A stretch of DNA of 37,045 nt from Bacteroidales bacterium. GTDB lineage: Bacteria; Bacteroidota; Bacteroidia; Bacteroidales; P3. The stretch is taken from assembly GCA_017962445.1 (NCBI GenBank), contig JAGCVI010000003.1, positions 1 to 37,045 on the forward strand, written 5' to 3'. Below are positions 21,540 through 34,465 of this stretch, piece by piece. How positions within the stretch are numbered: the stretch's first letter is position 1; every line of letters starts with the position of its first letter. Made by a program: the position numbers and the translations under genes. A model generated the notes under the pieces. The model saw only the letters and a program-made list of their open reading frames with translations. It did no database searches and was not told where the DNA came from.

Positions 21540-24383
21540 ATGACTGACCCCAAACTAGAAATACTTGGTGCACGCGAACACAACCTTCAGAACATCGACA
21601 TCGACCTGCCCCGCAACCAGCTGGTGGTCTTCACCGGACTGAGTGGCAGCGGCAAGTCGTCGTTGGCATTCGACACCATCTACGCCGAAGGTCAACGCCG
21701 CTACATGGAGACCTTCTCGGCCTATGCACGCCACTTCATTGGCAACATGGAACGCCCCGACGTGGACAGCATCAACGGCCTGAGCCCAGTCATCTCCATC
21801 GAACAGAAGACCACCAACAAAAACCCACGCTCGACAGTGGGCACCGTAACTGAAATCTACGACTTCGTCCGTCTGCTCTTCGCCCGCACCGCCGACGCCT
21901 ACTCGCATGTCAGCGGCAAGAAGATGATAAAATACAGTGAGAGCCAGATTCTCGAAATTATCATGACCGACTACGCCGACAAGGATATCCTTGTCCTCGC
22001 CCCCGTGGTGCACAGCCGCAAAGGACACTACCGCGAGCTCTTCCAGCAGGTGGCCAAGAAAGGATACCTGCGCGTCCGCGTTGACGGCGAAATCCGCGAA
22101 CTGACCTACAACATGCAGGTGGACCGCTACAAGACCCACGACATCGAGATAGTCATCGACCGCGTACGCGTCAACGAGAAAGGCCGCCGCCGCATGGAAG
22201 ACGCCGTAAAAAACGCCTTCAAGCAGGGCAAAGGCATGCTGATGATTCTCGAAAGCACTGGCAATAACGGGAAACCGCGCTATTTCAGCCGCATGCTGAT
22301 GGACCCCGACACAGGCGTGTCATACCCCGAGCCGGAACCCAACACCTTCTCGTTCAACTCTCCCTACGGCGCATGTCCCAAATGCAACGGCTTGGGCGAA
22401 ATCACCGAGATAGACATACGAAAGATAATCCCCGACCCTGAGAAAAGCATCCGCGACGGCGGTCTCGACGTACTCGGAAAGTACTCCCCGACCAATTTCC
22501 TCTACCGCCAGCTTGAAAATCTGGGACGGATATACAACTTCACCATCGACGACCCCATCGAAAGCCTCAGCGAAGAAGTAATAAATATTATATTGTACGG
22601 CACCAGCGACTACATCAACATACACTCCGCAGCCGAGAACTCGTTCAGCAGCGGCTTCCCCGGAATCGTCAACTACATCAACGAGCTGGCCATGGAAGAC
22701 CAGCCTGCGTCGCTCCAGAAATGGGCCAACAGCTTCATGAACAACGTCGCCTGCCCCGAATGCGGAGGCAAACGGCTGAAGCGTGAATCACTCAGCTTTC
22801 TGATTGACGGCAAAAACATCGGCGAAGTGGCGGAGATGAACCTCACCGAGTTCTACGACTGGGTGTCGACGCTCGAGCCCAAGCTGGACAAGAACCGTCG
22901 CGAGGTGGCGCATGAAATCCTGCGCGAGATACAGACCCGCACCAAGTTCCTTATCGACGTTGGCGTGGGCTACCTGTCGCTCAACCGCAGCTCGAAGTCG
23001 CTCAGCGGCGGCGAGAGCCAACGCATACGCCTCGCCACACAGATCGGTGCCAAGCTGGTCAATGTGCTGTACATTCTCGACGAGCCATCCATAGGTCTGC
23101 ACCAACGCGACAACCGCCGTCTTATCGATGCCCTCAAGGAGCTGCGCGACCTCGGCAACTCGGTAATTGTGGTAGAGCACGACCGCGACATGATTCTCAG
23201 TGCCGACTACGTCATCGACATCGGACCAGGAGCAGGAGTGCGCGGCGGCAAGATTGTGGCGGCAGGCACGCAGAAAGAGTTCCTGAAACACCACACATTG
23301 ACCTGCGACTACCTGAACCGCATCCGCGACATCGCAATCCCGGAACGGCGTACTGCCGAGGGACGCAAACACCTTGTGCTCAGCGGTGCCACAGGCAACA
23401 ACCTGAAAGACGTGACCCTCGACATACCGCTCGGCCTCTTCGTCTGCGTCACCGGTGTCAGCGGCAGCGGCAAGTCGTCGCTCATCAACGAGACTCTGCA
23501 CCCCATCCTCAACCAACATTTCTACCACTCGCAGAAACGGCCACTGCCCTACCGCGACATCAGCGGCATCGAACACATCGACAAGGTGATAGAAATCGAC
23601 CAATCGCCTATCGGCCGCACGCCCCGTTCCAACCCTGCGACATACGTCGGCATCTTCGACGAGATACGCCAGCTGTTCGCCCAGTTGCCAAGTGCAAAGA
23701 TAAGAGGCTACAAGCCCGGACGCTTCTCGTTCAACGTCAGCGGTGGGCGTTGCGACACCTGCAAAGGAGCAGGAATGCGCACCATCGAGATGAACTTCCT
23801 GCCCGATGTCTATATTAACTGCGAAGTGTGCAACGGCAAGCGATACAACCGCGAGACTCTGGAAATACGATATAAAGGCAAATCCATCTCCGACGTGCTC
23901 GACATGACCGTCAACGAGGCAGTGGAGTTTTTCGAACCTCACCCCAAGATTGCACGCAAACTGCAGGCAGTGAAGGACGTAGGCCTTGGATACATAACCC
24001 TCGGACAGCCGTCCACGACACTCAGCGGCGGCGAGGCACAACGCATCAAGCTGGCTACAGAGCTGTCCAAGACCGACACCGGCAACACGCTCTACATCCT
24101 TGACGAGCCCACAACAGGACTCCATTTCGAGGACATCAGGGTGCTGCTCGAAGTGCTGCAAAAGCTGGTCGACAAGGGCAACACCGTGCTTGTCATAGAA
24201 CACAACATGGACGTTATCAAAGTCGCCGACTGGATAGTGGACATCGGTCCCGACGGCGGCATAAAAGGCGGCGAGATAGTCTTTGCCGGCACCCCCGAAC
24301 AGCTTGCAAAAGAAAAAGACAACTTCACCGGCATCTATCTTAAAGAAGAACTGGAAGAAGTTAAAAAGCACATCAATAAATGA
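21540..24383 (+). CDS. uvrA: Excinuclease ABC subunit A
   Basis: Damage-recognition ATPase of nucleotide excision repair; works with UvrB and UvrC, neither of which is in this window. 947 residues, normal length. Two ABC modules: Walker A GLSGSGKSS at 33-41 and GVSGSGKSS near 639; signature motifs LSGGESQRIRLATQ near 488 and LSGGEAQRIKLATEL near 827; Walker B ILDEPSIGLHQ and ILDEPTTGLHF. Both zinc modules are intact: CPKC...CPEC around the first insertion, and CDTCKGAG...CEVCNGKRY in the second half. The stop overlaps the next start (ATGA). Confidence 0.98.
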   Translation: MTDPKLEILGAREHNLQNIDIDLPRNQLVVFTGLSGSGKSSLAFDTIYAEGQRRYMETFSAYARHFIGNMERPDVDSINGLSPVISIEQKTTNKNPRSTVGTVTEIYDFVRLLFARTADAYSHVSGKKMIKYSESQILEIIMTDYADKDILVLAPVVHSRKGHYRELFQQVAKKGYLRVRVDGEIRELTYNMQVDRYKTHDIEIVIDRVRVNEKGRRRMEDAVKNAFKQGKGMLMILESTGNNGKPRYFSRMLMDPDTGVSYPEPEPNTFSFNSPYGACPKCNGLGEITEIDIRKIIPDPEKSIRDGGLDVLGKYSPTNFLYRQLENLGRIYNFTIDDPIESLSEEVINIILYGTSDYINIHSAAENSFSSGFPGIVNYINELAMEDQPASLQKWANSFMNNVACPECGGKRLKRESLSFLIDGKNIGEVAEMNLTEFYDWVSTLEPKLDKNRREVAHEILREIQTRTKFLIDVGVGYLSLNRSSKSLSGGESQRIRLATQIGAKLVNVLYILDEPSIGLHQRDNRRLIDALKELRDLGNSVIVVEHDRDMILSADYVIDIGPGAGVRGGKIVAAGTQKEFLKHHTLTCDYLNRIRDIAIPERRTAEGRKHLVLSGATGNNLKDVTLDIPLGLFVCVTGVSGSGKSSLINETLHPILNQHFYHSQKRPLPYRDISGIEHIDKVIEIDQSPIGRTPRSNPATYVGIFDEIRQLFAQLPSAKIRGYKPGRFSFNVSGGRCDTCKGAGMRTIEMNFLPDVYINCEVCNGKRYNRETLEIRYKGKSISDVLDMTVNEAVEFFEPHPKIARKLQAVKDVGLGYITLGQPSTTLSGGEAQRIKLATELSKTDTGNTLYILDEPTTGLHFEDIRVLLEVLQKLVDKGNTVLVIEHNMDVIKVADWIVDIGPDGGIKGGEIVFAGTPEQLAKEKDNFTGIYLKEELEEVKKHINK

Positions 24384-25567
24384 ATTCCGTCATTACCATA
24401 TTATACCTGTTAGGCATACCGCTGCTGGTGATGCGGCTGGCGAAGCGGTGGAGCTGGATTGACAAGGTGAGTCCCATGACGGTGCTGTACATCGTCGGAC
24501 TTGCCGTCGCCAACCTGATACCTAAAGGCAACGGAATATTCAATGTAGACCTGGACATCAACACCCTTTTCAGCAACCTGGCGGTTCCGTTGGCAATACC
24601 GCTTATGCTTATGGGCTGCGACATGAACCACTGGCAAATCGGCAAAGCATTCAAGGTGTTCCTCTCGGGCTTGGTGTCTGTGCTTATCGTCACAATCATC
24701 GGCTTTTTCATCTTCCAGCCTGCTGACCATACACCTGAAGACTACAAAGGCTTCGCACAGGTATGTGCCGTGGCAACAGGCATCTACACCGGCGGCATAC
24801 CAAATATGGGAGCCATCAAGCAGGCTGTGGGCATGCCGCACCAGACCTACCTCTACATCACCAGCTACGACCTCATAGTCACTGGCCTCTATCTGGTCTT
24901 CATCATCTTTTTCGGGAAAACAGTGTTCCGGAAGTTGTTGCCGGTACAAAAGAAGAGTTCCAACAGCGCAACGTCAAAAACAGAGGAAACATCTGTAACC
25001 GACGATGCCAAGGTCAATCCTTTTGACAAAAGCCATCTTAAAGCAACCCTGATTGCCATAGGGATAACGCTTGTCATTGCAGCAATATCGTATGGAGCCT
25101 CACTGCTAACGTCCAAGGATGGCAGCCCGAATATGACAGTGCTGATACTTCTGCTCACCACCCTGGCCATTGCAGCTTCGTTCCTGCCGTCCATGAAGCA
25201 GCAGCAACACTCGTTCGACCTGGGGCTCTACTGTGTCTACGTTTTCTGCCTGGCCATAGCCACGGCATGCAACGTACGCGATATGGACATTGCCGGCAGC
25301 CTTCCGATACTATACTATCTGGGTTTCATCATCCTCGGATCGCTCGTTCTGCAAATCATCTTCGCGAAGCTGCTTAAAATTGACGGCGACTCAGTGATGG
25401 TATGCAGTGTTGCCCTCATCAATTCGCCGCCGTTCGTGCCTCTTGCCGCCGCATTGCTCAACAATAAGAACATAGTGGTACTTGGCATAACCATAGGCCT
25501 ATTGGGATATATGCTCGGCAACTATCTGGGCATAGGCATATTCCACCTGTTGCTAACCATAGGCTAA
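24380..25567 (+). CDS. DUF819-family membrane protein
   Basis: A 395-residue integral membrane protein with many hydrophobic segments. It begins ILYLLGIPLLVMRLAKRWSWIDKVSPMTVLYIVGL and contains GTGGIPNMGAIKQAVG-like and LINSPPFVPLAAALLNNKNIVVLGI stretches typical of DUF819 (YjcL-like) proteins, which have a transporter-like fold of unknown substrate. A cytoplasmic Ser/Lys/Thr-rich loop lies near 190-215. It starts within the uvrA stop (ATGA overlap), so translation is probably coupled, although a functional link to repair is not known. It is the last gene before the A+T-rich array. Confidence 0.85.
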   Translation: MNSVITILYLLGIPLLVMRLAKRWSWIDKVSPMTVLYIVGLAVANLIPKGNGIFNVDLDINTLFSNLAVPLAIPLMLMGCDMNHWQIGKAFKVFLSGLVSVLIVTIIGFFIFQPADHTPEDYKGFAQVCAVATGIYTGGIPNMGAIKQAVGMPHQTYLYITSYDLIVTGLYLVFIIFFGKTVFRKLLPVQKKSSNSATSKTEETSVTDDAKVNPFDKSHLKATLIAIGITLVIAAISYGASLLTSKDGSPNMTVLILLLTTLAIAASFLPSMKQQQHSFDLGLYCVYVFCLAIATACNVRDMDIAGSLPILYYLGFIILGSLVLQIIFAKLLKIDGDSVMVCSVALINSPPFVPLAAALLNNKNIVVLGITIGLLGYMLGNYLGIGIFHLLLTIG

Positions 25568-25876
25568 GTTCATTTTGCAGATCTGCTACAACAATATTAT
25601 TATATCAGAAAATAACTTGAATTCGAATATGGCGATATGTGCTGACTCTTCGCACCCTCGCCATACCTATTTATAATTCCTTCTATATATGACGAGTCGA
25701 AATCATTCAGTAGTTTCTGACGCATGTCCAACTGTAGAGAACTGTCCATCTGTTTATTACTTGTATTAATAAACCAGCAACTGTCATTTTTGTGCACGTT
25801 TTATGTAGTCTTGAGAGTCAGTTTTATATGTTGATTGATTCAACAAATTATTAAGTTTTAAAGTCAACTGTTAATT
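25568..25876. other. A+T-rich gap at the left edge of the toxin array
   Basis: Between the converging DUF819 gene and the last array gene. It contains the short palindrome GCAGATCTGC (25577-25586) and one doubtful minus-strand frame (25600-25797). No direct repeat, tRNA or integrase site marking an island edge is visible. Confidence 0.5.
25600..25797 (-). CDS. Doubtful small ORF, possibly a gene remnant
   Basis: 65 residues, no signal peptide, no recognised motif. It follows the last immunity candidate in the same direction after 79 bases. The second half (MRQKLLNDFDSSYIEGIINRYGEG...) has ordinary protein-like composition, so it may be what is left of a further cassette gene, but chance is just as likely. 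Confidence 0.2.
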   Translation of the reverse strand: MHKNDSCWFINTSNKQMDSSLQLDMRQKLLNDFDSSYIEGIINRYGEGAKSQHISPYSNSSYFLI

Positions 25877-26380
25877 TCAAATACTGTCAATTTCAATTGA
25901 TATAAAGTCATCTGGCTGAACGCAAACAACATCAATAAAACCATCGCTAATAGTATATTCTAGAAATAACAATGTGTCTTCGGGAGTGAACTTGAGACTG
26001 CTCAAATCAACATTTTTCAAAGAATCAGTATTGTAAAAACAGGTTCCGATGTTACTTTCATCAAAAACCAATAATTTATAATCGCCAATGGTTATGAGAC
26101 CCTTAAACCCATTCAATGGCATACTCTTATGCATCGGACCGAAAGCTATTCTGGTATGCTCCAACTCATTGCCCAGATACCCTTTTAAAAATTCTAATAC
26201 GTAACAGACAGAAGTGTCAGGATTTTTCTCATGCCCAATAAAATAGGCGAAAGCCTTCTCTATACATGGTGCCACCTTAGGTGTGGGGGTGCTTTTTGAG
26301 ACAAACTCTTCCGATGTGGTGCTATTATGGCAAGAAAACAGAATCAATGATATTAATGTAAAAGGAATTATCTTTTTCAT
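25877..26380 (-). CDS. Lipoprotein, probable immunity protein of cassette 1
   Basis: 167 residues with a lipoprotein signal: MKKIIPFTLISLILFSC, lipobox LFSC, Cys at 17. The remainder is acidic and unrecognised (LEFLKGYLGNELEHTRIAFG, LEYTISDGFIDVVCVQPDDF). It starts 3 bases after the stop of the JAB-like toxin candidate, so the two are surely cotranscribed. By analogy with polymorphic toxin loci it should neutralise that payload. The lipobox places it at the membrane or periplasm, which implies that the payload acts outside the cytoplasm. Confidence 0.65.
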   Translation of the reverse strand: MKKIIPFTLISLILFSCHNSTTSEEFVSKSTPTPKVAPCIEKAFAYFIGHEKNPDTSVCYVLEFLKGYLGNELEHTRIAFGPMHKSMPLNGFKGLITIGDYKLLVFDESNIGTCFYNTDSLKNVDLSSLKFTPEDTLLFLEYTISDGFIDVVCVQPDDFISIEIDSI

Positions 26381-26383
26381 AGC

Positions 26384-27274
26384 CTATTTTGAGTTGTATG
26401 TTCCAAAAAATAAATCTGAAAATATTCTAATTCTTCTAATATAAGCTGGCCTATGGAATCCGATACTCCATAATTGATTGGTATGAGGGAAGTAAGTATA
26501 ATAATTTGTATTTCGAAAAACTAATCTTTTATTACAAGCATCTCCTCTAAACTCACCTCTATTATACCAGTATCCCATACTCTCCATTTGACTATCATTT
26601 GATGTGGGATCAATAACTCCATTCATTGGATGAGAATGAATTAAAGTCACAACATCATTGTTATCATGATGACCTTTTGATAAATAATAAGTACTTGGCG
26701 TATGTTCCGTATCATGTTTTGTTCCAATTGAGTAAGTATTATCTGTGTATCGTTCAATACCCCACTCTACATTGGTATTATCGGCCATGAATTTAAAAAC
26801 TTTTGCATAGGCGGTTTGCATATTTTCGTCACCGTAGGAAGAGGAAACATTATTATTCGTTATTATACTTAGGTCAGATATGGTTTTATAATATTTATTG
26901 CCTCGAAATATTGCCACAGTGCCGTTGGAATATTTAACAGTTTGTTTCATCGTGCCCCCATCATTACTTGTTTTTTGAATTGTACCATCTTCTGAGACAG
27001 ACCACACATCTTGTCCATCCGGGTCAACCAGCTTGACTGGGTTCCAGCTGCAGTAGGCGTAAGGAGAAATGCTGGGGTATTTATCCGCCATCGGGTCGAC
27101 GGATAGCCAGGCAGTGGAGAGGGCATTGTCGAGGTAGCGGGCACCGAAGTATGAATACCCTGTTTCGAGGTCTAACTCCTTGCCGGTGGAGCCTGGGAGT
27201 CGAAAAACGCTGTTCCCAGCTGCTTTTCGGGGCTGTTTCACAGGCGTTTTTCGTATGTCGGTTTTTGATGTCAT
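26384..27274 (-). CDS. Cassette 1 toxin candidate: Rhs-core module plus JAB/JAMM-like peptidase
   Basis: 296 residues. Residues 1-87 are the shared module: leader, then TGKELDLETGYSYFGARYLDN, PMADKYPSISPYAYCSWNPVK and LVDPDG, the C-terminal end of an Rhs/YD-repeat core. The payload (88-296) carries LIHSHP (H213, H215), PTSND after it and GDACNK with D245, a layout like the JAB-like toxin families; E170 in NVEWGIE is a possible JAMM Glu. The region resembles the cassette 3 payload (DVWS...DGT, FADN/MADN, HxHP, GD). JAMM enzymes cut isopeptide or peptide bonds. No signal peptide. The Ser-x2-Asp part of the JAMM motif is not textbook, so activity needs proof. Confidence 0.75.
   Translation of the reverse strand: MTSKTDIRKTPVKQPRKAAGNSVFRLPGSTGKELDLETGYSYFGARYLDNALSTAWLSVDPMADKYPSISPYAYCSWNPVKLVDPDGQDVWSVSEDGTIQKTSNDGGTMKQTVKYSNGTVAIFRGNKYYKTISDLSIITNNNVSSSYGDENMQTAYAKVFKFMADNTNVEWGIERYTDNTYSIGTKHDTEHTPSTYYLSKGHHDNNDVVTLIHSHPMNGVIDPTSNDSQMESMGYWYNRGEFRGDACNKRLVFRNTNYYTYFPHTNQLWSIGFHRPAYIRRIRIFSDLFFGTYNSK
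27014..27274 (-). repeat. Shared 87-codon module, copy 1
   Basis: LDLETGY...LDNALSTAWLSVD subtype, shared with copy 2. The leader reads NSVFRLPGSTG and is closest to copy 3. Confidence 0.9.
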
Positions 27275-27388
27275 TTTTGAATAACGAGCAATTAATGATG
27301 ATTTTGTATGTCAATTAAGTCAGCAATGCTTAAGGCCATACCGTAAAACAATCAGATAAATCTACAGCAATGTGTTAGGTATTGTCTT

Positions 27389-27895
27389 TCATAAATTTTC
27401 TTTCTCCCATAAATACTCTCCGTTTATGTATTTCTTTAGTTTGTATATACGATCCTTTTTTTTGATAAATAAAAATTCAGAATCAGGACATCCTAAAAGA
27501 CTATAGTGAATCCGGATGTATTTCGTCGGATACGGCACAATTATATCTTGACAGAACGTCCTACTGCAATAAAGATATTCTGTATAGTGCCTAATGACAA
27601 TAGTTGTATCTCTGGGGTCCTTCGTTATTGTATGACAAAAGGATGGCAATAACTTTATGTTTACGGTGTCGCCACTAATCCACATTGTGTCAACCATCAG
27701 AGAAACATCGTATATGTAATTTGGTATATCCCAATAAGCTTTTTCCTTACATGGAAAAGGTAATGGAATATCCCTTTTCTTGACGTGATACTGCAAAGTA
27801 ACAAGACTTTGCGCTGATAGATTCATGCCAATGAACAGTGCAATAAAAAAAATAATAATTGATTTAATAGTAATGTTCTTTTCCATTTCTTTCAT
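27389..27895 (-). CDS. Exported probable immunity protein of cassette 2
   Basis: 168 residues with a signal peptide (hydrophobic IIIFFIALFIGMNL, cleavage near LSAQ-S). The mature part is basic and rich in Tyr, Ile and Cys (four Cys, perhaps two disulfides), with no recognised domain. Its start overlaps the end of the cassette 2 toxin gene by 32 bases (ATG at 27895, or 23 bases if it starts at 27886). Such overlap couples the amounts of toxin and immunity. Confidence 0.65.
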   Translation of the reverse strand: MKEMEKNITIKSIIIFFIALFIGMNLSAQSLVTLQYHVKKRDIPLPFPCKEKAYWDIPNYIYDVSLMVDTMWISGDTVNIKLLPSFCHTITKDPRDTTIVIRHYTEYLYCSRTFCQDIIVPYPTKYIRIHYSLLGCPDSEFLFIKKKDRIYKLKKYINGEYLWEKENL

Positions 27896-28793
27896 ATCTT
27901 CCTAGAATTCTGAGTGCTGCATTCTGATAATCTACCTTTTCTTTACCCGAACTACTTTCAGTGACACTATGTCTGATGTTTCTGTTTAAAAACTCGTCGA
28001 GTATTTCATGAATAAAAACAGAACTCGCGGTTGTTGTTGTATAAATCGGGAACAATATATCAGACTCACCACCACCAAGTGTGTATAGGTCAGTCGACAG
28101 AAGATTCTGTTGATCTGTTCCCTTGTCATTAATCAATACAGGATAAACGACACCGATAGTTCCATCCATTGGGGAGGTAGCTGTATATCCAGAGCCTCCA
28201 TCTGAATATATACAACTATTAGTTTCTTTATATTTAGGATTTTCATTATCATCCAGACCCTCGAATTCTTTCATAGTGAATTCTACATCTCCACTATAAT
28301 TTTCAGTTACTCTTAGCAATGCAATCTCCTTTGCTTCAATAGCACATCTAATACCATCTAACAATTTTCTCTGATCTGGCGACGCATTCTTGTAGTATCT
28401 CTTATATCTTCTATTGTTTATTTGAAGATAATTATTGTTTGTAAAAGAAAACATATTACTTTTACCAAATAACTCATTTAGATATTTTTTTACATATTTA
28501 TGTGTTGTTCTATCGTGAAGCTTTATTCTTTTTCCATCTGGGTCCACCAGCTTGACGGGATTCCAGCTGCAGTATGCGTAAGGAGAAATGCTGGGGTACT
28601 TGTCCGACATCGGGTCGACGGATAGCCAGGCGGTGGAGAGGGCGTTGTCGAGGTACCTTGCACCGAAGTAAGAATACCCTGTTTCAAGGTCTAACTCCTT
28701 GCCGGTGAAGGCTGAATGACAAAAAACACTATTTCCAGCCACGTTTTGAGGCTGTTTTGAAGTTGCTTTTTGTATGTCGTTTTTTGTCGTCAT
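27864..28793 (-). CDS. Cassette 2 toxin candidate: Rhs-core module plus HExxD metallopeptidase-like payload
   Basis: 309 residues; 1-87 are the shared module ending KLVDPDG. The payload (88-309) begins with a basic segment (TTHKYVKKYLNELFG, NNRRYKRYYKN). Near the end is FIHEILDEFLN: H262, E263 and D266 form an HExxD motif in place of HExxH, followed by YQNAALRILG and a terminal His (H307 in KEHYY). I read it as a degenerate or variant zincin site and do not recognise the exact family. Variant HExxD/HExxE sites are known in peptidases, but a non-enzymatic payload cannot be excluded. No signal peptide. A 149-base gap separates it from the cassette 3 immunity gene, so it may have its own promoter. 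Confidence 0.65.
   Translation of the reverse strand: MTTKNDIQKATSKQPQNVAGNSVFCHSAFTGKELDLETGYSYFGARYLDNALSTAWLSVDPMSDKYPSISPYAYCSWNPVKLVDPDGKRIKLHDRTTHKYVKKYLNELFGKSNMFSFTNNNYLQINNRRYKRYYKNASPDQRKLLDGIRCAIEAKEIALLRVTENYSGDVEFTMKEFEGLDDNENPKYKETNSCIYSDGGSGYTATSPMDGTIGVVYPVLINDKGTDQQNLLSTDLYTLGGGESDILFPIYTTTTASSVFIHEILDEFLNRNIRHSVTESSSGKEKVDYQNAALRILGRYERNGKEHYY
28533..28793 (-). repeat. Shared 87-codon module, copy 2
   Basis: Core of the copy 1 subtype, leader (NVAGNSVFCHS) nearly identical to that of copy 4. The 20 or so bases before the ATG (CATATAGGAC type) recur before copy 5 and, less exactly, copy 4. Confidence 0.9.
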
Positions 28794-28942
28794 GTCCTAT
28801 ATGTAACATTTTTTTACAAATATTTACACATGGGTGTAATTATTTTTAGTGGTCTCGTTTGCATTCTAACATTGTATTGTCTCCTTTAGTTATCATCCTC
28901 AACGATAAATTATAAATCCGACACAAATGGGAGACATTAGTC

Positions 28943-29593
28943 TTACTGTTGTTCCACTGATAACAGCCTGAGAGTTGCATCGTCTTGAATTTTATATTTA
29001 TATGTGCTTTGAGAATGAGTTGTTAAATCTCTATTGACAAACCCACGCTGATCATAACCATAATGAATCTCGCCATTCATAATATCGGCTCCACCTATTA
29101 TTTGATACAAATACCTTGTCTCGGAATCATCCATTTTATAGTCATTTATATAACCCAAAGCTAAAGATAATCTTGAAATGAATCCACCTTGGAGTGTATA
29201 TGACAATATGTCTAAATATGAAGCATATGATTTTGTTTTCGTTTGGTGATTATATATTTCCAAAATACTATATATACCCAAAACATAACCATTGGGGCAA
29301 TCTATTCTAAATGCTGGATAGATTTCAAAGAGAGGCGTTGTCACCATTATTTTTTCATATTTAATGTTTAGTGGGACTTTATCTGGGTTATTAAACCATA
29401 CGGCTTGAAACAATGTATCATATTGCTGACGCTGCACAGAGAACTCGGAAAGGAGCTCTGAAAACAATACTTTGTCTTGAGTAAATGTCGTTTCATTGGG
29501 TTCAGTTCTTTTGGGAACGTCGTACTTTTGAGCCGATGCTGTTGTTGCATATACACTCAAAAAAAATAGAATTGTTATTACCTTTATCGTCAT
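28943..29593 (-). CDS. Exported probable immunity protein of cassette 3
   Basis: 216 residues with a clear signal peptide (MTIKVITILFFLSVYATTASA-Q). The mature part has an Asn/Gln/Tyr-rich middle (FEIYPAFRIDCPNGYVLGIYSILEIYN) and a C-terminal GYDQRGFVNRDL stretch; no family recognised. It begins 34 bases after the stop of the cassette 3 toxin candidate and is followed by a 149-base gap, so it closes a transcription unit or sub-unit. Confidence 0.62.
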   Translation of the reverse strand: MTIKVITILFFLSVYATTASAQKYDVPKRTEPNETTFTQDKVLFSELLSEFSVQRQQYDTLFQAVWFNNPDKVPLNIKYEKIMVTTPLFEIYPAFRIDCPNGYVLGIYSILEIYNHQTKTKSYASYLDILSYTLQGGFISRLSLALGYINDYKMDDSETRYLYQIIGGADIMNGEIHYGYDQRGFVNRDLTTHSQSTYKYKIQDDATLRLLSVEQQ

Positions 29594-29627
29594 AATTCAT
29601 TGGCGTTTTAATATGTTTATATCAAGG

Positions 29628-30521
29628 TTATAAACTAAATGCGTTCCATATAGCATCTTGTTTCCTAGTATAACCTTTAGAACTCTTAATAAAACTAGAC
29701 TGCCTTTCTTCTGATACTTTCTTTTCACCACCTTCAAAGGAGTAATTGTAATAACCACCTTCCCCAACCTTTGTATAAAGATAAAAATCACATGATTTTG
29801 CTTTTTCTCTAATATGACCATAAAATGTTTTATCATCTCCATTACCTTTACGATTTGTTGGATCTGAAGGTGTGGCATTACCATCAGGATGATTGTGAAA
29901 ATGTTTAAGAAGTTTGTCACCGAGTTCACACGCTCGCGCAGATCCATTTGCATCCCCTAAGTCCGACAATGAAGTGGACAGATCATACCTATCCTTACCT
30001 TTTTCCTTATAACCAAGTGCAGAAAACTCAAAATTTAGATTATCAGCAAAAAGCTCAAAAGCTTTTTGAGCATCCATCACGTCTGTAAATGTATAGTACT
30101 GGTTATCTTTTAATGAAAAAGAATATCCTTCATACCCTGTTCCAAAGACGTTATTTGAATTAGAAAAAAGGATTTCCTTTCCATTATATAAAATCTTATC
30201 ATGTAATGATTTATTCTTCCAGGTCATTGTACCATCATCAGAAAGTGTCCACACATCTCTTCCATCTGGATCCACCAGCTTAACTGGGTTCCAAGCGCAG
30301 TAGGCATACGGTGAAATTGACGGGTACTTGTCACTCATCGGGTCGACGGTGAACCACGAGATCAGAAGGGTGTGGTCGAGGTACCTCGCGCCGAAGTATG
30401 AGAAGCCTGTTTCGGAGTCTAACTCCTTGCCGGTGAAGCCTGGGTGTCGAAAAACGCTGTTTCCAGCTGCTTTTTGAGGCTGTTTCGAAGTTGCTTTTTG
30501 TTTGTCGGTCTTAGTCAACAT
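29628..30521 (-). CDS. Cassette 3 toxin candidate: Rhs-core module plus JAB-like peptidase
   Basis: 297 residues; 1-87 are the shared module. The payload contains HFHNHPDG (H209, H211), then PSDP, then GNGDDKTFYG and CDFYLYTKVGEGGYYNYSF. This order, HxHPxG followed by a GD and a strand of the FYxYxx...YYxYSF kind, is the pattern I associate with JAB-like Rhs toxins. E165 in NFEFSALG is a candidate JAMM glutamate. Homologous to the cassette 1 payload but clearly diverged. The gene starts 24 bases after the cassette 4 immunity stop, so cassettes 4 and 3 are likely one transcript. No signal peptide. Confidence 0.78.
   Translation of the reverse strand: MLTKTDKQKATSKQPQKAAGNSVFRHPGFTGKELDSETGFSYFGARYLDHTLLISWFTVDPMSDKYPSISPYAYCAWNPVKLVDPDGRDVWTLSDDGTMTWKNKSLHDKILYNGKEILFSNSNNVFGTGYEGYSFSLKDNQYYTFTDVMDAQKAFELFADNLNFEFSALGYKEKGKDRYDLSTSLSDLGDANGSARACELGDKLLKHFHNHPDGNATPSDPTNRKGNGDDKTFYGHIREKAKSCDFYLYTKVGEGGYYNYSFEGGEKKVSEERQSSFIKSSKGYTRKQDAIWNAFSL
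30261..30521 (-). repeat. Shared 87-codon module, copy 3
   Basis: Leader like copy 1 (KAAGNSVFRHPGFTG) but core like copy 5: bases 30289-30437 match 33356-33504 with a single mismatch that I can find (30361). A recombinant of two subtypes. Confidence 0.92.
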
Positions 30522-30545
30522 CTTCTTTGTATAATAGATTGAAGA

Positions 30546-31262
30546 TCAATATAGCCTTTCAAGATATTTATATTCGTCACCAATCTCAATTCCGAGTCTA
30601 TTTGTACTTTTTATCAAGACACGGAAGAAATCATTGTAATTGGGCAATAGTACAAATACCACATCGCCACTGTCTTTGCAATAGTTCTTACAAATGCCGT
30701 TGCTGCTATTAGGATTTATACCATATATATTGAATTGGTAGGTATTGTTCGGAATCTCAACACTTTCATATTCTTTGTCTGACCTATGGTACTCCTGTAT
30801 TATTCCCCCAGAAGAATCGTAAAAATAGGCATCATAAATAGGCATGAGATGTCCGCCTCTATCTTTTAAGGAAACGGTATTCCCTTTCCCATGCGTATTC
30901 TTGTTGTAAAAATACATGGTGGATTCAAGGGATTCACCATCGTCATTATGAAAACAGATACTTGATTTTACTGAATCAGTCCTCATCCTCAGCATATCCA
31001 TCTTGCGCCATTTATTAGCTCTTGACAATGTCCAATACCCATACATCTCTCCCCAGTAGTTGTGCTCTACAAAACGGCCGTCATCTCGCAAACTGATTGA
31101 AAAAGGTCTGCTATCGGGAAATATTTTGTTGGACACATATTCCCCTTCATATTTTTCCCTCCAATACTTGTAATCTCTACCCAATAACTTATCCATGACA
31201 GTGCATGATTGAAACACGGCCAAAAGGAAAATCAGTGTCAACGCTATTTTAGTTTGTTTCAT
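30546..31262 (-). CDS. Lipoprotein, probable immunity protein of cassette 4
   Basis: 238 residues. The signal ends in a lipobox FQSC (MKQTKIALTLIFLLAVFQSC), so the mature protein is lipidated at Cys20. The body alternates charged and aromatic residues (KYWREKYEGEYVSNKIFPDSRPFSISLRDDGRF, GYWTLSRANKWRKMDML), suggesting a small beta-barrel or lipocalin-like fold; this is a guess from the pattern. It overlaps the stop of the zincin candidate by ATGA, the tightest coupling in the array. Confidence 0.68.
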   Translation of the reverse strand: MKQTKIALTLIFLLAVFQSCTVMDKLLGRDYKYWREKYEGEYVSNKIFPDSRPFSISLRDDGRFVEHNYWGEMYGYWTLSRANKWRKMDMLRMRTDSVKSSICFHNDDGESLESTMYFYNKNTHGKGNTVSLKDRGGHLMPIYDAYFYDSSGGIIQEYHRSDKEYESVEIPNNTYQFNIYGINPNSSNGICKNYCKDSGDVVFVLLPNYNDFFRVLIKSTNRLGIEIGDEYKYLERLY

Positions 31263-32170
31263 TTTAACGGAAGATAAACAGTTCCTTTGTATTTATGAGT
31301 TTTCCCTTTTTCATCAGTCCACCGATGTGTGCCTTCAAATGGTATTTTCCCTTCTTCGGAGCTATATGTTCCTTCCAAATGATAACATGCTTCATACGTT
31401 TTCCTTAAAGGCATTCCCATTTCTTTCCTATACTTATTGACTCTTGCAACGGCCTCTCCTACACCATGCGGTCCGGTTTTATATGCAGGATATTCTTTAT
31501 CTGGGTCATTCCAAAAAAAAGTTGCCTCATTATTAGGTGGATCATCGTCTCCAAAATAGGCATGTCCTAATTCGTGAAAAAACAACATTCCGAGTCCGTT
31601 TGTCTTATTATCACATTCTTTTTGGTGGAAAGAGCCCAGAAGAATCCAATCATTTCCTTGTTTGTCAACCGCATATTCATCTTGATTGACATTACTATTT
31701 TCCCCGACAAAAATGACTTTTTCGTGATTATCCATAACTTTCTGCAAATCCTCACGTGCAGATTTAGAAAACCTGTACTTTCCATTTCTCACACCTTTGG
31801 AAACAAGCAATCCATTCTCAACAGCAAGATTCAAGCCTGTTATGTATCCTATACAATCCACAAGTCTTTTTTGTAATTCTTCTGACAATGCAGAGACATC
31901 AATGTCCATACCTTCCGGGTCAACCAACTTCACTGGATTCCAAGCACAATAGTTATAGGGGCTTAGCGACGGATACTTGTCGCTCATTGGGTCGACGGTG
32001 AACCACGAGGTCAGGAGGGTGTGGTCGAGGTACCTCGCGCCGAAGTAGTAGAAGTCCGTTTCGGAGTCTAACTCCTTGCCGGTGAAGTCTGAATGACAAA
32101 AAACACTATTCCCAGCCACGTTTTGAGGCTGTTTTGAAGTTGCTTTTTTTATGTCGGTTTTCGTCTTCAT
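31259..32170 (-). CDS. Cassette 4 toxin candidate: Rhs-core module plus HExxH zincin
   Basis: 303 residues; 1-87 are the shared module, here with DPEG in place of DPDG and the changes ETDFYYFGA. The payload shows MLFFHELGHAYFGDD: H199, E200 and H203 are a standard HExxH zinc site. About 35 residues later GEAVARVNKYRKEMGMPLRKTY provides the third ligand (E239) and the EN..R...G...R..Y tail seen in metallopeptidase toxins of Bacteroidales. This is the clearest enzyme of the array: a secreted-type metallopeptidase effector. The end (YKGTVYLPLK) is beta-like. No signal peptide. Confidence 0.83.
   Translation of the reverse strand: MKTKTDIKKATSKQPQNVAGNSVFCHSDFTGKELDSETDFYYFGARYLDHTLLTSWFTVDPMSDKYPSLSPYNYCAWNPVKLVDPEGMDIDVSALSEELQKRLVDCIGYITGLNLAVENGLLVSKGVRNGKYRFSKSAREDLQKVMDNHEKVIFVGENSNVNQDEYAVDKQGNDWILLGSFHQKECDNKTNGLGMLFFHELGHAYFGDDDPPNNEATFFWNDPDKEYPAYKTGPHGVGEAVARVNKYRKEMGMPLRKTYEACYHLEGTYSSEEGKIPFEGTHRWTDEKGKTHKYKGTVYLPLK
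31910..32170 (-). repeat. Shared 87-codon module, copy 4
   Basis: The most diverged core (YYFGA, SLSPYNY, DPEG) but with the LDHTLLTSWFTVD subtype of copies 3 and 5; its leader matches copy 2 almost base for base. A mosaic. Confidence 0.9.
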
Positions 32171-32255
32171 GCCCTATTTGTAGCATTTCTGATAAAAATC
32201 ATTTGACTGTTACCACATTCATATTACGGCTGATGATTAATAATTTTTATTCAGA

Positions 32256-32771
32256 TCATTCACTTACATCTTTGTCCTCACCTTTTTTTTCCATTTCCAA
32301 GAGTCTTATACATTCTTCATAGCCTAACTGAGCGCCTTTGACTAAGTAATGCATTATAAAATCATGGGTCTCTTTATCCATTTCCATATTATAATATTCA
32401 TAAAGCTCCTTTGTTCTAAGATATATTTGAAAACACGCAGGTGCGTAATTGTATCTATTTGCCATTATTAGAGCATACGGTAATATATGTTCGTAATCAT
32501 TATATGATCCATTGCTGTGTTTTGGGTAATCCGCACCCCTTAAAAAATGATATTGTGCATATGACAATACATCTCCTTTTAAAACTATACTGTCAATAAA
32601 TACGCGACACTCTTTGATAGAATATCTTGGTGAAACATTTTCTACTATTACCTTAGGGTTCTGACAATATGAATTGTTTATTGAAGTTGTCACAAGACCG
32701 AATAATGCAACTCCATATAACCATGTTCTATATTTCTTGTTTTTCCACATATTCTCTATATTTTTTTTCAT
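32256..32771 (-). CDS. Exported or membrane-anchored probable immunity protein of cassette 5
   Basis: 171 residues. A basic start and a hydrophobic segment (WLYGVALFGLVTTSI) ending near NNSYCQ look like a signal peptide or anchor. The mature part is helical, with ILPYALIMANRYNYAPACFQIYL and LVKGAQLGYEECIRLLE, faintly like Sel1/TPR helices. It overlaps the end of the caspase-like gene by 44 bases (or 23 if started at the Met at 32750). It precedes cassette 4 by 85 bases. Confidence 0.62.
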   Translation of the reverse strand: MKKNIENMWKNKKYRTWLYGVALFGLVTTSINNSYCQNPKVIVENVSPRYSIKECRVFIDSIVLKGDVLSYAQYHFLRGADYPKHSNGSYNDYEHILPYALIMANRYNYAPACFQIYLRTKELYEYYNMEMDKETHDFIMHYLVKGAQLGYEECIRLLEMEKKGEDKDVSE

Positions 32772-33588
32772 ATTTTGCTATTACTTCATCGGGATTCCTA
32801 AACACAGGCTTTTTTGTACCACTGAAACTATCAACCAATACACCTTTATAATAAATCTTCCAATATCCCTTTTTTTCAATATTCCTTTCGATTTTATTGT
32901 CTACAAACTTAACAGTACCAACATATGTACCATCATCGTAAGATTGTTCATATGGCAATCCGGGATTCGTTGTTTGTATTTTTAAAAGCTCTGATGGAGC
33001 CACGACCAGAAGATTTGCTTCTGCAGAAATCTTTTTTGCTATATTATCCTCACCTTCTCCTGTGTTGCATGAATGTAATACGAGTATTGATGTTTTGCCT
33101 TCCCTTTCATTTTGATTAAAGACAGTGCTGTGTTCTCTTAAAAAAGATTCCATTTGAGATGCAGATGAAATGTAATCTAATTTTCCATTGTTATCATATT
33201 CGATACTTGACTTGTTTCCATGAGCCCATAAATGAATTACTGGATCATTTCTATAATATCTTTCTGCTGCATTTTTTATTCGTGTATTGCGAATGCAGTC
33301 TAAAAACAGAGAAATAATTTTTTCTTTCCCATCCGGATCCACCAACTTCACAGGATTCCAAGCGCAGTAGGCATACGGTGAAATTGACGGGTACTTGTCA
33401 CTCATCGGGTCGACGGTGAACCACGAGGTCAGAAGGGTGTGGTCGAGGTACCTCGCGCCGAAGTATGAGAAGCCTGTTTCGGAGTCTAACTCCTTGCCGG
33501 TGAAAGTTGAATGACAAAAAACACTGCTTCCTGCCACGTTTTGAGGCTGTTTCAGAGGTGTTTTATATAAGTCGCTTTTCGTCGTCAT
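32728..33588 (-). CDS. Cassette 5 toxin candidate: Rhs-core module plus caspase-like (clan CD) cysteine peptidase
   Basis: 286 residues; 1-87 are the shared module. The payload has the clan CD layout: a strand ending in catalytic His (VIHLWAHGNKSS, H123), then about 45 residues, then a strand ending in Cys (SILVLHSCNTGEGEDN, C174). The spacing and the HG and SCNTG motifs agree with the caspase/C80/CHAT group. After it comes IAKKISAEANLLVVAPSEL, the next strand of the fold. The target would be a protein. MARTX-type C80 domains are auto-processing, so self-cleavage of a larger Rhs protein is a second option. No signal peptide. Confidence 0.78.
   Translation of the reverse strand: MTTKSDLYKTPLKQPQNVAGSSVFCHSTFTGKELDSETGFSYFGARYLDHTLLTSWFTVDPMSDKYPSISPYAYCAWNPVKLVDPDGKEKIISLFLDCIRNTRIKNAAERYYRNDPVIHLWAHGNKSSIEYDNNGKLDYISSASQMESFLREHSTVFNQNEREGKTSILVLHSCNTGEGEDNIAKKISAEANLLVVAPSELLKIQTTNPGLPYEQSYDDGTYVGTVKFVDNKIERNIEKKGYWKIYYKGVLVDSFSGTKKPVFRNPDEVIAKYEKKYREYVEKQEI
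33328..33588 (-). repeat. Shared 87-codon module, copy 5
   Basis: Core nearly identical to copy 3; leader (QNVAGSSVFCHS) close to copies 2 and 4. First toxin module of the array in transcription order. Confidence 0.92.
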
Positions 33589-33703
33589 GTCCTATATGAA
33601 ACATTTCTTTAAGAAAATTTACACATGTGTGTATTTTTTTTAATTGTAACGGCTTTGCACACTGAATGGTTCCACATGTTGTACCTGGTTGATGTGATAT
33701 TTC
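33589..33703 (-). promoter_or_regulatory. Gap before cassette 5 with palindrome ACACATGTGT
   Basis: The 20 or so bases next to the ATG and an ACACATGTGT palindrome (33621-33630) are repeated before cassette 2, there as ACACATGGGTGT (28826-28837). The palindrome could be an operator or part of the recombined segment. No TAnnTTTG box is evident. Confidence 0.4.
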
Positions 33704-34447
33704 TCATTCATCATGGTCTATAGGGAAACCATAATATTCCGAATCTATTATTAGTTTTTCCCTGACATCATCCAAGTCTTCGTCAAAAGACTGAAAATCA
33801 AGAATACAATATTTCCTCACAAGGGACAGGATGAAATATTCGAACAGACTTAAAGGTCTCGGCTCTATATTATCTCTTTCACTATAAAAAAACGTCTTTT
33901 GATGGTCGCCGGAACCAACAACAATTAAACAGTTGTATGTACGGCTCCAATTCGTTCCGGATGTATCAATGTATGCTCCGTCTTCATATTTATCCAATAA
34001 TTCCTCGAGAACAGAAAGAAGTCTGACTTCCTCATAGGACAAATTGGCGAGGTATCTTGTTTTTATTATTCTATAACCTCTACTGGCCAAGGCATATACG
34101 TTAATTGACATCGTAGAGCCTTTGACGGAGACATCGCAAATCGGGATACGCTGTTTGTGCCAGCAGCCATCAATTCCATTGGCATATTTCAAATCAATAT
34201 CTGCAGTTTGAAATGTTGAATCCGCATAGAACACCGTGTCTGCAGTTATTTCTGCCGAGGAAAAAACGTCAAAGAAATCGAGGAAAATCCCCATGTCGTA
34301 TGGAGTATATATAGAATTGTTGATTCGTATTACAGGAAATCCGTAAATTTCATAATAAACTGCTGCAATTTGTTTGTCTTGTGCAAATGAGGACATATTT
34401 AAAAGCACAAGTGTAAATAACAAAACTATTCTTTTCATGGCTATCAT
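33704..34447 (-). CDS. Exported protein at the head of the array, perhaps an unpaired immunity protein
   Basis: 247 residues from the first ATG; the signal peptide (MKRIVLLFTLVLLNMSSFA-Q) fits better if translation starts at the Met at 34438, giving 244. The mature part is acidic with many Asp, Tyr and Phe (EIYGFPVIRINNSIYTPYDMGIFLDFFDVF, ending FPIDHDE). No family recognised. It has the size, A+T-rich codon use and export signal of the second genes of the five cassettes but no toxin gene before it, since a thioesterase gene ends 18 bases upstream. It may be immunity left after loss of its toxin, or immunity to a rival's payload. Confidence 0.6.
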   Translation of the reverse strand: MIAMKRIVLLFTLVLLNMSSFAQDKQIAAVYYEIYGFPVIRINNSIYTPYDMGIFLDFFDVFSSAEITADTVFYADSTFQTADIDLKYANGIDGCWHKQRIPICDVSVKGSTMSINVYALASRGYRIIKTRYLANLSYEEVRLLSVLEELLDKYEDGAYIDTSGTNWSRTYNCLIVVGSGDHQKTFFYSERDNIEPRPLSLFEYFILSLVRKYCILDFQSFDEDLDDVREKLIIDSEYYGFPIDHDE

Positions 34448-34465
34448 TTTGTTTTGGTTTTATCT

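Follow-up and report, generated by a model that had tools for sequence, protein, structure and literature searches.

Tandem orphan modules that pair a CdiA-CT or Rhs-CT toxin tip with an immunity gene have been described, and loci for contact-dependent inhibition (CDI) can hold up to eleven such pairs (PMC3150448). In the passages of that paper on E. coli EC869 and 254, Poole et al. report that the homology between CDI orphans runs precisely from VENN to the next VENN, so that an exchanged unit of the kind discussed below has a precedent (PMC3150448). Enterobacterial orphans usually sit behind a main gene and are without translation initiation signals, according to the parts of PMC3967940 and PMC3150448 that deal with them, and Salmonella orphan rhs is presented in PMC7043789 as expressed from core-end promoters, with a cytoplasmic toxin-antitoxin role. 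TcdB/TcaC-type polymorphic toxins of Bacteroidetes and other phyla combine a signal peptide, SpvB, integrin-like repeats and RHS (PMC3482391). For the type VI secretion system (T6SS) of Vibrio cholerae, arrays of immunity genes are explained by effector displacement and the stepwise addition of effector-immunity pairs, with old immunity genes kept (PMC5361080). The locus considered here is a tandem array of five Rhs-type toxin cassettes in a Bacteroidales bacterium (GenBank assembly GCA_017962445.1, contig JAGCVI010000003.1), which probably represents a set of orphan Rhs-CT/immunity modules with the delivery and immunity mechanism proposed below. The window, that is, the whole stretch of DNA analysed (37,045 nt), is an entire contig (C17) of this genome (G000), which is 2.04 Mb in size, lies on 38 contigs and is 80% complete.

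Five consecutive minus-strand open reading frames (ORFs) align across their 87 N-terminal residues, the other four being 67-83% identical to the first, after which the payloads diverge. A preliminary description of the region, made from the letters of the DNA, had noticed this shared start followed by differing payloads, and ORFs, alignment and a DNA repeat of 300 nt that is present five times (73-79% identity between the reference copy and the other four) confirm it. The assignment of all 87 residues to the end of an Rhs core stands for residues 30-87 and not for the first 29, which form a separate leader, so that 29 residues of leader and the final 58 residues of the core make up the module. 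Rhs_assc_core (TIGR03696) matches all five ORFs above cut-off (E 4e-12 to 8.1e-14), from residues 23-30 to residues 87-88, and the leader lies outside or nearly outside this match. With matches to the end of the model and ORFs of 286-309 aa, each gene carries the C-terminal end of the core and a variable payload, the rest of the core being absent, as in an orphan tip. The nearest named matches of the core-end module are Bacteroidales metagenome-assembled genomes, several of them from the rumen.

The leader is under weaker constraint at the protein level than the module, as seen by divergence at the three codon positions in the window (0.19/0.20/0.29 in the leader vs 0.14/0.10/0.36 in the module). 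Since third positions vary most in the leader as well (0.29), the window leaders may be translated. The complete leader block occurs only in the own genome among 189, three others having matches of 21-34 nt, and leaders mostly differ from genome to genome. A role of the leader as a working export or docking peptide is not favoured, given this weak constraint and the differences between genomes.

Relatives of the module are widespread: 106 of 190 genomes of the family match it at E <= 1e-6, some in frames of ~3000 aa. The site set used below holds 305 module sites from 48 genomes, the own genome counted in; these genomes were chosen around the matches listed and are hence not a random sample of the 106. 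It is duplicate-free and was left after 18 of 323 module-match ORFs, in which the match ended before position 85, had been dropped. Analyses covered 281 orphans and 8 full-length parents (more than 1500 aa ahead of the module), and clustering, from which 30 of the 305 sites with payloads <120 aa were omitted, yielded 95 families among 275 payloads.

Two of the window payloads appear to be JAB1-type metallopeptidase toxins. Cassette 1 (26384-27274, 296 aa, with leader 27188-27274, core end 27014-27187 and payload 26387-27013) matches PF15659 (Toxin-JAB1) at E 1.8e-12, and cassette 3 (29628-30521, 297 aa; leader 30435-30521, core end 30261-30434, payload 29631-30260) at E 2.7e-8; like all features given by coordinates in the array, both lie on the minus strand. 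In the cluster that they form, the 21 members aligned of 28 all keep E, H, H and D, which we take to have the roles of JAMM residues; no member of the cluster sits on a parent. Matches above the Pfam cut-off together with these residues place both payloads in Toxin-JAB1 by sequence. A profile search of the PDB with the JAB set returned eight weak matches that were not accepted; the best, at E 0.12, was a RadC homologue, and the others included BRCC36 sequences.

The other three payloads are less clearly named. Cassette 4 (31259-32170, 303 aa; leader 32084-32170, core end 31910-32083, payload 31262-31909) is a putative HExxH zincin by motif, with HE..H invariant in 3/3 aligned sequences; PF14891 (M91) was reached at E 0.28 only, below the cut-off, and the PDB profile search gave no match. 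Cassette 5 (32728-33588, 286 aa; leader 33502-33588, core end 33328-33501, payload 32731-33327) is predicted to be caspase-like, with a His-Gly and a Cys. HG and SC are invariant in five aligned sequences, and the best Foldseek match of the predicted model (pLDDT 83.8) is 3gcd_A, a caspase-like RTX cysteine protease domain (E 4e-3, probability 0.99, TM 0.42), none being found at E <= 0.001. The payload of cassette 2 (27864-28793, 309 aa; leader 28707-28793, core end 28533-28706, payload 27867-28532) had no Pfam match up to E 1 and, with a confident predicted structure (pLDDT 84.3), no PDB match at E <= 0.001; HExxDE is invariant in four aligned sequences. Payloads of toxin type, as previously proposed, are consequently found in four of the five cassettes, and the term peptidase can be kept for cassettes 1 and 3 (Pfam), 4 (motif) and 5 (predicted fold) but not for cassette 2. 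Plus-strand ORFs of about 100 aa overlie the toxin genes at 31574-31876 and 32674-32985 and show no sign of being genes. Pfam matches at E <= 0.01 among 81 payload representatives include M91 (3), M23 (2), Ntox44 (2), cell wall hydrolase (2), Toxin-JAB1 (2) and, among others, YkuD and C92 once each. Together with the export-type partners described next, these families lean towards targets outside the cytoplasm.

Each toxin gene is followed by a different small gene whose product starts like an exported protein, as the preliminary description had it, with spacings of +3, -32, +34, -4 and -44 nt in cassettes 1 to 5. Candidate immunity protein 1 (25877-26380, 167 aa) has a lipobox-like signal and begins 3 nt past toxin 1, and signal-like starts are found in candidates 2 (27389-27895, 168 aa, overlapping toxin 2), 3 (28943-29593, 216 aa, 34 nt past toxin 3), 4 (30546-31262, 238 aa, in a 4-nt overlap with toxin 4) and 5 (32256-32771, 171 aa, overlapping toxin 5). 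By a simple and crude hydrophobicity rule, used for all such calls here, the N-terminus is hydrophobic in all five partners of the window and signal-like in 201 of 253 partners across the set vs 2 of 175 toxins. Inheritance of partner and toxin as a pair is indicated by position in 5/5 window cassettes and by pair counts across the set: of the immunity pairs at >= 40% identity, all 61 also match in their payloads, a count favoured by the fact that partners were picked by position, and of the 132 payload pairs above the same threshold 98 also match in their partners. By the preliminary description, wide occurrence of partners without toxins would refute its reading; an unrestricted search for homologues of one of the five partners, the one at 25877-26380, gave 9 of 189 genomes, the own genome included, of which six adjoin the same JAB toxin (in one case only the toxin's end, at a contig edge), one is cut by a contig edge and two are without toxin.

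A sixth signal-like ORF without a toxin lies at the upstream edge of the array (33704-34447) and may be an orphan immunity gene by position only; none of the set's immunity candidates matched its product at E <= 1e-3. Elsewhere in the own genome, a locus on contig C10 (L253:3092-5579, C10 ~23091-25578) contains a copy of the repeated block described below, flanked by four small export-type ORFs, one before and three after it, with neither toxin nor module. One of these ORFs shares 78% identity with the immunity gene that follows a full-length Rhs protein in another species (genome G084), which makes this cluster the best sign that immunity is retained against tips that others deploy.

Full-length relatives suggest how such tips could be delivered. 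The parent L121 contains SpvB, TcdB_midN, FG-GAP and RHS domains, starts like a lipoprotein and bears an M91 payload, and its 700 N-terminal residues are matched in 27 of 120 genomes of the genus, the own genome not among them; the other seven parents match parts of these 700 residues in the same long frames. All eight parents share a payload family with orphans. Payload length is nearly constant (median 204 aa), with 88% of 281 orphans in the range of 180-235 aa and the eight parents at 190-220 aa, as if all payloads were made to fit the same shell. SpvB/TcdB middle domains are not among the Pfam matches of the five window genes. A search of the own genome with TIGR03696 (E <= 0.01) recovered only the five places of the array and no other core end, in line with the earlier statement that no parent rhs gene accompanies the array, within an assembly that is four-fifths complete.

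Launchers also appear to be missing from some other genomes. Sixteen were picked by hand as at least 95% complete, with a module present and no SpvB-type match (G066 was excluded for contamination). Six of them have no YD repeat, six have such repeats only in frames of up to 610 aa and four in frames of 979-2083 aa, the last of which may hold another kind of parent; G074 and G075, both near-complete, have 10 and 13 modules and no YD repeat. Either launcher-free stores are real, or launchers are often lost in assembly. YD-repeat matches on contig C16 of the own genome were rejected as a parent, as they sit in two short proteins with signals, 271 and 258 aa long; there (L001:172-1818, C16 ~150.0-151.7 kb) the two proteins lie in tandem, with one RHS/YD repeat match each and no core end. 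The T6SS was also rejected as a route, no sheath marker having been found: TssC/VipB (PF05943) was detected in 0 of 120 genomes of the genus and, of 14 controls, only in E. coli, no Bacteroidales T6SS carrier being among the controls, so that the sensitivity of this search is unproven.

Taken together, each unit of the array would consist of a start codon with a short leader, the 58-residue core end, a toxin payload and an export-type candidate immunity protein, and we consider it probable that the payloads act outside the cytoplasm. A tip would be delivered once recombination in the module has placed it on a full-length Rhs protein of SpvB/TcdB type. Before that, the small toxin ORF, if translated, would remain harmlessly in the cytoplasm, its translation perhaps feeding that of the coupled immunity gene, and the exported immunity protein would protect the cell from neighbours that deploy the same tip. 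With a cytoplasmic toxin and an exported partner as proposed, the array would be an immunity store first and a reservoir of tips second. The preliminary description had seen in it a dedicated store of toxin tips. The families shared by parents and orphans and the exchange between species described below agree with a store, but given the precedent for tandem orphans, the weakly constrained leader and the lack of a parent in the window families, a dedicated one is not fully supported.

Whether the orphan genes are used in their present state bears on this reading. All five genes of the window have an ATG of their own, as had been stated before, and an in-frame ATG ahead of the core end is found in 176 of 217 orphans vs 95.3 +- 6.3 in shuffled leaders, with 18/18 in both G054 and G126. 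The sequence TAnnTTTG is the Bacteroidetes -7 consensus, and this box occurs in 41 of 217 orphans vs 10.1 +- 3.0 expected. It is clearest in one other genus (g4; G125-G130, L132, L133 and others), where an ATG leader is present in each of the 44 orphans tested and the exact box in 18; modules number 17-28 each in G126, G127, G129 and G130, seven in G125 and two in G128. In the window, a repeated block that could act as a promoter includes the start codons of cassettes 2 (28789-28816) and 5 (33584-33611). Four copies are present in the own genome at <= 3 mismatches (cassettes 2 and 5, C10 and C16) vs none in a reversed control, and the block upstream is common to units 2 and 5 and weakly to unit 4. 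On C16 (L258:732-1505, near 62856) the block precedes a gene for a protein of 257 aa with a signal-like start. As this protein has no credible match among the immunity candidates, its gene may be a resident one from which the block came.

Most payloads appear to be under purifying selection. From 45 payload pairs, parents included, dN/dS was measurable in 32 and lies between 0.12 and 0.45 in 30, two very recent pairs giving 0.80 and 1.24. Differences between modules within a genome fall on third positions with a share of 0.62-0.69 at every identity level, and with 0.69 even in the seven pairs that are more than 93% identical. Selection in the orphan state and frequent cycling through parents fit both results alike.

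Starts, boxes and conserved reading frames would also be expected if each short gene encoded a complete toxin that needs no Rhs shell to get out of the cell, be it on lysis or through an exporter, while its exported partner protects kin in the manner of a bacteriocin system. Such autonomous effectors would explain why the near-complete genomes G074 and G075 keep many modules with no YD repeat, and why the third-position bias persists among the most similar modules. However, a signal is present in only 2 of 175 toxin ORFs, TssC/VipB was found in none of the 120 genomes, leaders are mostly genome-specific and weakly constrained as proteins, orphan payloads have the size of those on parents, and the units of the window themselves are without the exact box. 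We therefore regard this explanation as unlikely. Decay is far less plausible still: displaced tips might be neutral relics of earlier rhs genes, in agreement with the 24 of 281 orphans whose payloads are <150 aa and with stops in some copies, yet most ORFs are intact, catalytic residues are invariant, selection is purifying and starts are retained. A role as intracellular, self-stabilising toxin-antitoxin modules, as proposed for Salmonella orphan rhs (PMC7043789), could account for own starts and a coupled downstream gene, but is the least credible of these options because the partners look exported and the toxins do not, so that the two would not meet in the cytoplasm.

The payloads move between genomes of different species together with their immunity genes. 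Of 14 payload pairs at >= 80% identity, 13 are between genomes. In six of eight profiled pairs identity is 0.85-1.00 across payload and immunity gene and 0.40-0.90 in the thirds of the module, while the pair G094/G105 loses identity within the payload and G130/G130, from a single genome, is patchy. For 12 of these 14 near-identical pairs, the shared tract has its left edge at nt 105-174 of the 174-nt module; the other two were set aside as their payload starts are out of register, and coordinates are approximate for the modules that are not 58 codons long. Four pairs have a next module in both genomes. Identity passes through the next leader in two of them, G062/G076 and G075/G105, in which this leader is 0.97 and 1.00 identical and identity stops 17 and 5 nt into the next module, and it ends earlier in the other two. 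The tract shared by G021 and G105 ends at the first nucleotides of the next module, which is absent from G105; there (L145, G105:C10) the stretch of the array closes with a leader and the opening nucleotides of the core end, no module following. Recombination in the module fits the left edge well and the right edge only in part.

Divergence along the module points the same way. Over 211 of the 305 sites the ratio of within-genome to between-genome divergence rises unevenly from 0.46 at the 5' end of the module to ~1 at the payload, averaging 0.69 over nt 0-132 and 0.96 over nt 144-174 (difference 0.27, bootstrap 2.5% bound 0.19). The window modules are mosaic as well: cassettes 2 and 4 are 0.97 alike at the leader ends and down to 0.47 in stretches of the module, while modules are 0.97-1.00 alike to nt 140 and leader ends 0.72 in cassettes 3 and 5, and 0.88-1.00 to nt 140 and 0.65 in cassettes 1 and 2. 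Gene conversion after transfer as a cause of the sharp module edges is not favoured, because modules within a genome are only ~81% alike on average.

The array itself is an insertion. It forms an island of 8898 bp (25568-34465) with a GC content of 0.368 vs 0.520 in the rest of the contig, between two genes that appear to be permease-like and thioesterase-like. These flanking genes are 2-79 nt apart by match coordinates in G077, G058, G104, G047, G010 and G117, and likewise in G009 and G038; their adjacency in six relatives indicates that the 8.9 kb of the array were inserted. In a few relatives (e.g. G030, G032, G062 and G100) they lie 7-50 kb apart on one contig, and in G103 and G116 (L136, L137) another gene stands between them, presumably a ZIP-like transporter by sequence. 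Within the island the modules have a GC content of 0.554, and payloads and immunity genes one of 0.344. Module GC exceeds payload GC in all 270 intact sites of the 305, which makes the modules look resident and the payloads foreign. Carriage by phages or plasmids was considered and set aside, the matches, to one phage record with a module as query and to five plasmid records with the cassette 1 protein, all being <60% identical.

Perhaps the core end acts more widely as a recombination socket, in a cassette system that spans species and has no recombinase of its own, in which payload and immunity gene, at times with the next leader, move between sockets of native composition, have their own starts and persist in stores without a launcher. 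This wider idea is speculative, and we put it forward tentatively. If true, weapons would be shared at the level of the population between carriers of tips and carriers of shells.

Several observations weigh against the proposed store of deliverable tips and its exchange at the core end. If selection acted on immunity alone, the intact catalytic sites of the toxins would call for another reason. The five payloads of the window fall in four clusters, none of which includes a parent, and a parent may be missing from the own assembly simply because it is only 80% complete. Pfam puts names on only a minority of the 81 payload representatives, and 34 of the 132 payload pairs at >= 40% identity are without an immunity match. 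The signal rule is passed by 280 of 744 control ORFs, a control that includes immunity genes and antisense ORFs. In-frame ATGs are rare in some genomes (1/8 in G114, 1/5 in G033), no exact TAnnTTTG lies within 200 nt of the ATG in any of the five window units, and units 1 and 3 are without the repeated block. As for exchange, the left edges of the two pairs set aside are at nt 78 and 117, the near-identical pairs share genomes and are hence not independent, and six of 11 tracts end 4-126 nt past the immunity stop rather than at the module, one more ending within the payload.

With 275 payloads in 95 families from 48 genomes, this large natural series allows the breakpoints of tip exchange to be mapped base by base. 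As toxin and partner apparently end up in different compartments, the question of why orphan toxins are kept becomes directly testable. The series also points to tip exchange in a genus where no T6SS sheath gene was found.

Compared with described systems, the array resembles the orphan rhs-CT/rhsI and cdiA-CT/cdiI modules of Enterobacteriaceae in its displaced toxin tips and immunity genes, placed in tandem behind a conserved core motif, and, for the set of relatives, in orphan payloads whose families are also found on full-length genes elsewhere (PMC3150448, PMC3967940). It differs from these orphans, as presented in the relevant parts of both papers, in that in-frame ATGs are common, no parent is assembled and the partners look exported. 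The full-length relative L121 has the architecture of TcdB/TcaC-type toxins, a route for which PMC3482391 lists metallopeptidase toxins as well as cassettes that stand alone; its passages on these do not describe arrays in which five units have leaders specific to the genome and no parent. Orphan tips of Salmonella rhs can likewise be transcribed and translated alone, whereas the partner here looks exported (PMC7043789). Contig C10 recalls the immunity arrays of Vibrio cholerae (PMC5361080), unlike which most toxin ORFs here are intact and no T6SS sheath gene was found. Full-text literature searches, at the level of listings and the beginnings of abstracts, turned up no paper on parentless arrays in Bacteroidales, which is no proof of absence. 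The array is of a known kind, and what is new, as far as these searches show, are its common start codons, its export-type partners, the occurrence of parentless assembled arrays and an exchange of tips that maps to the core end.

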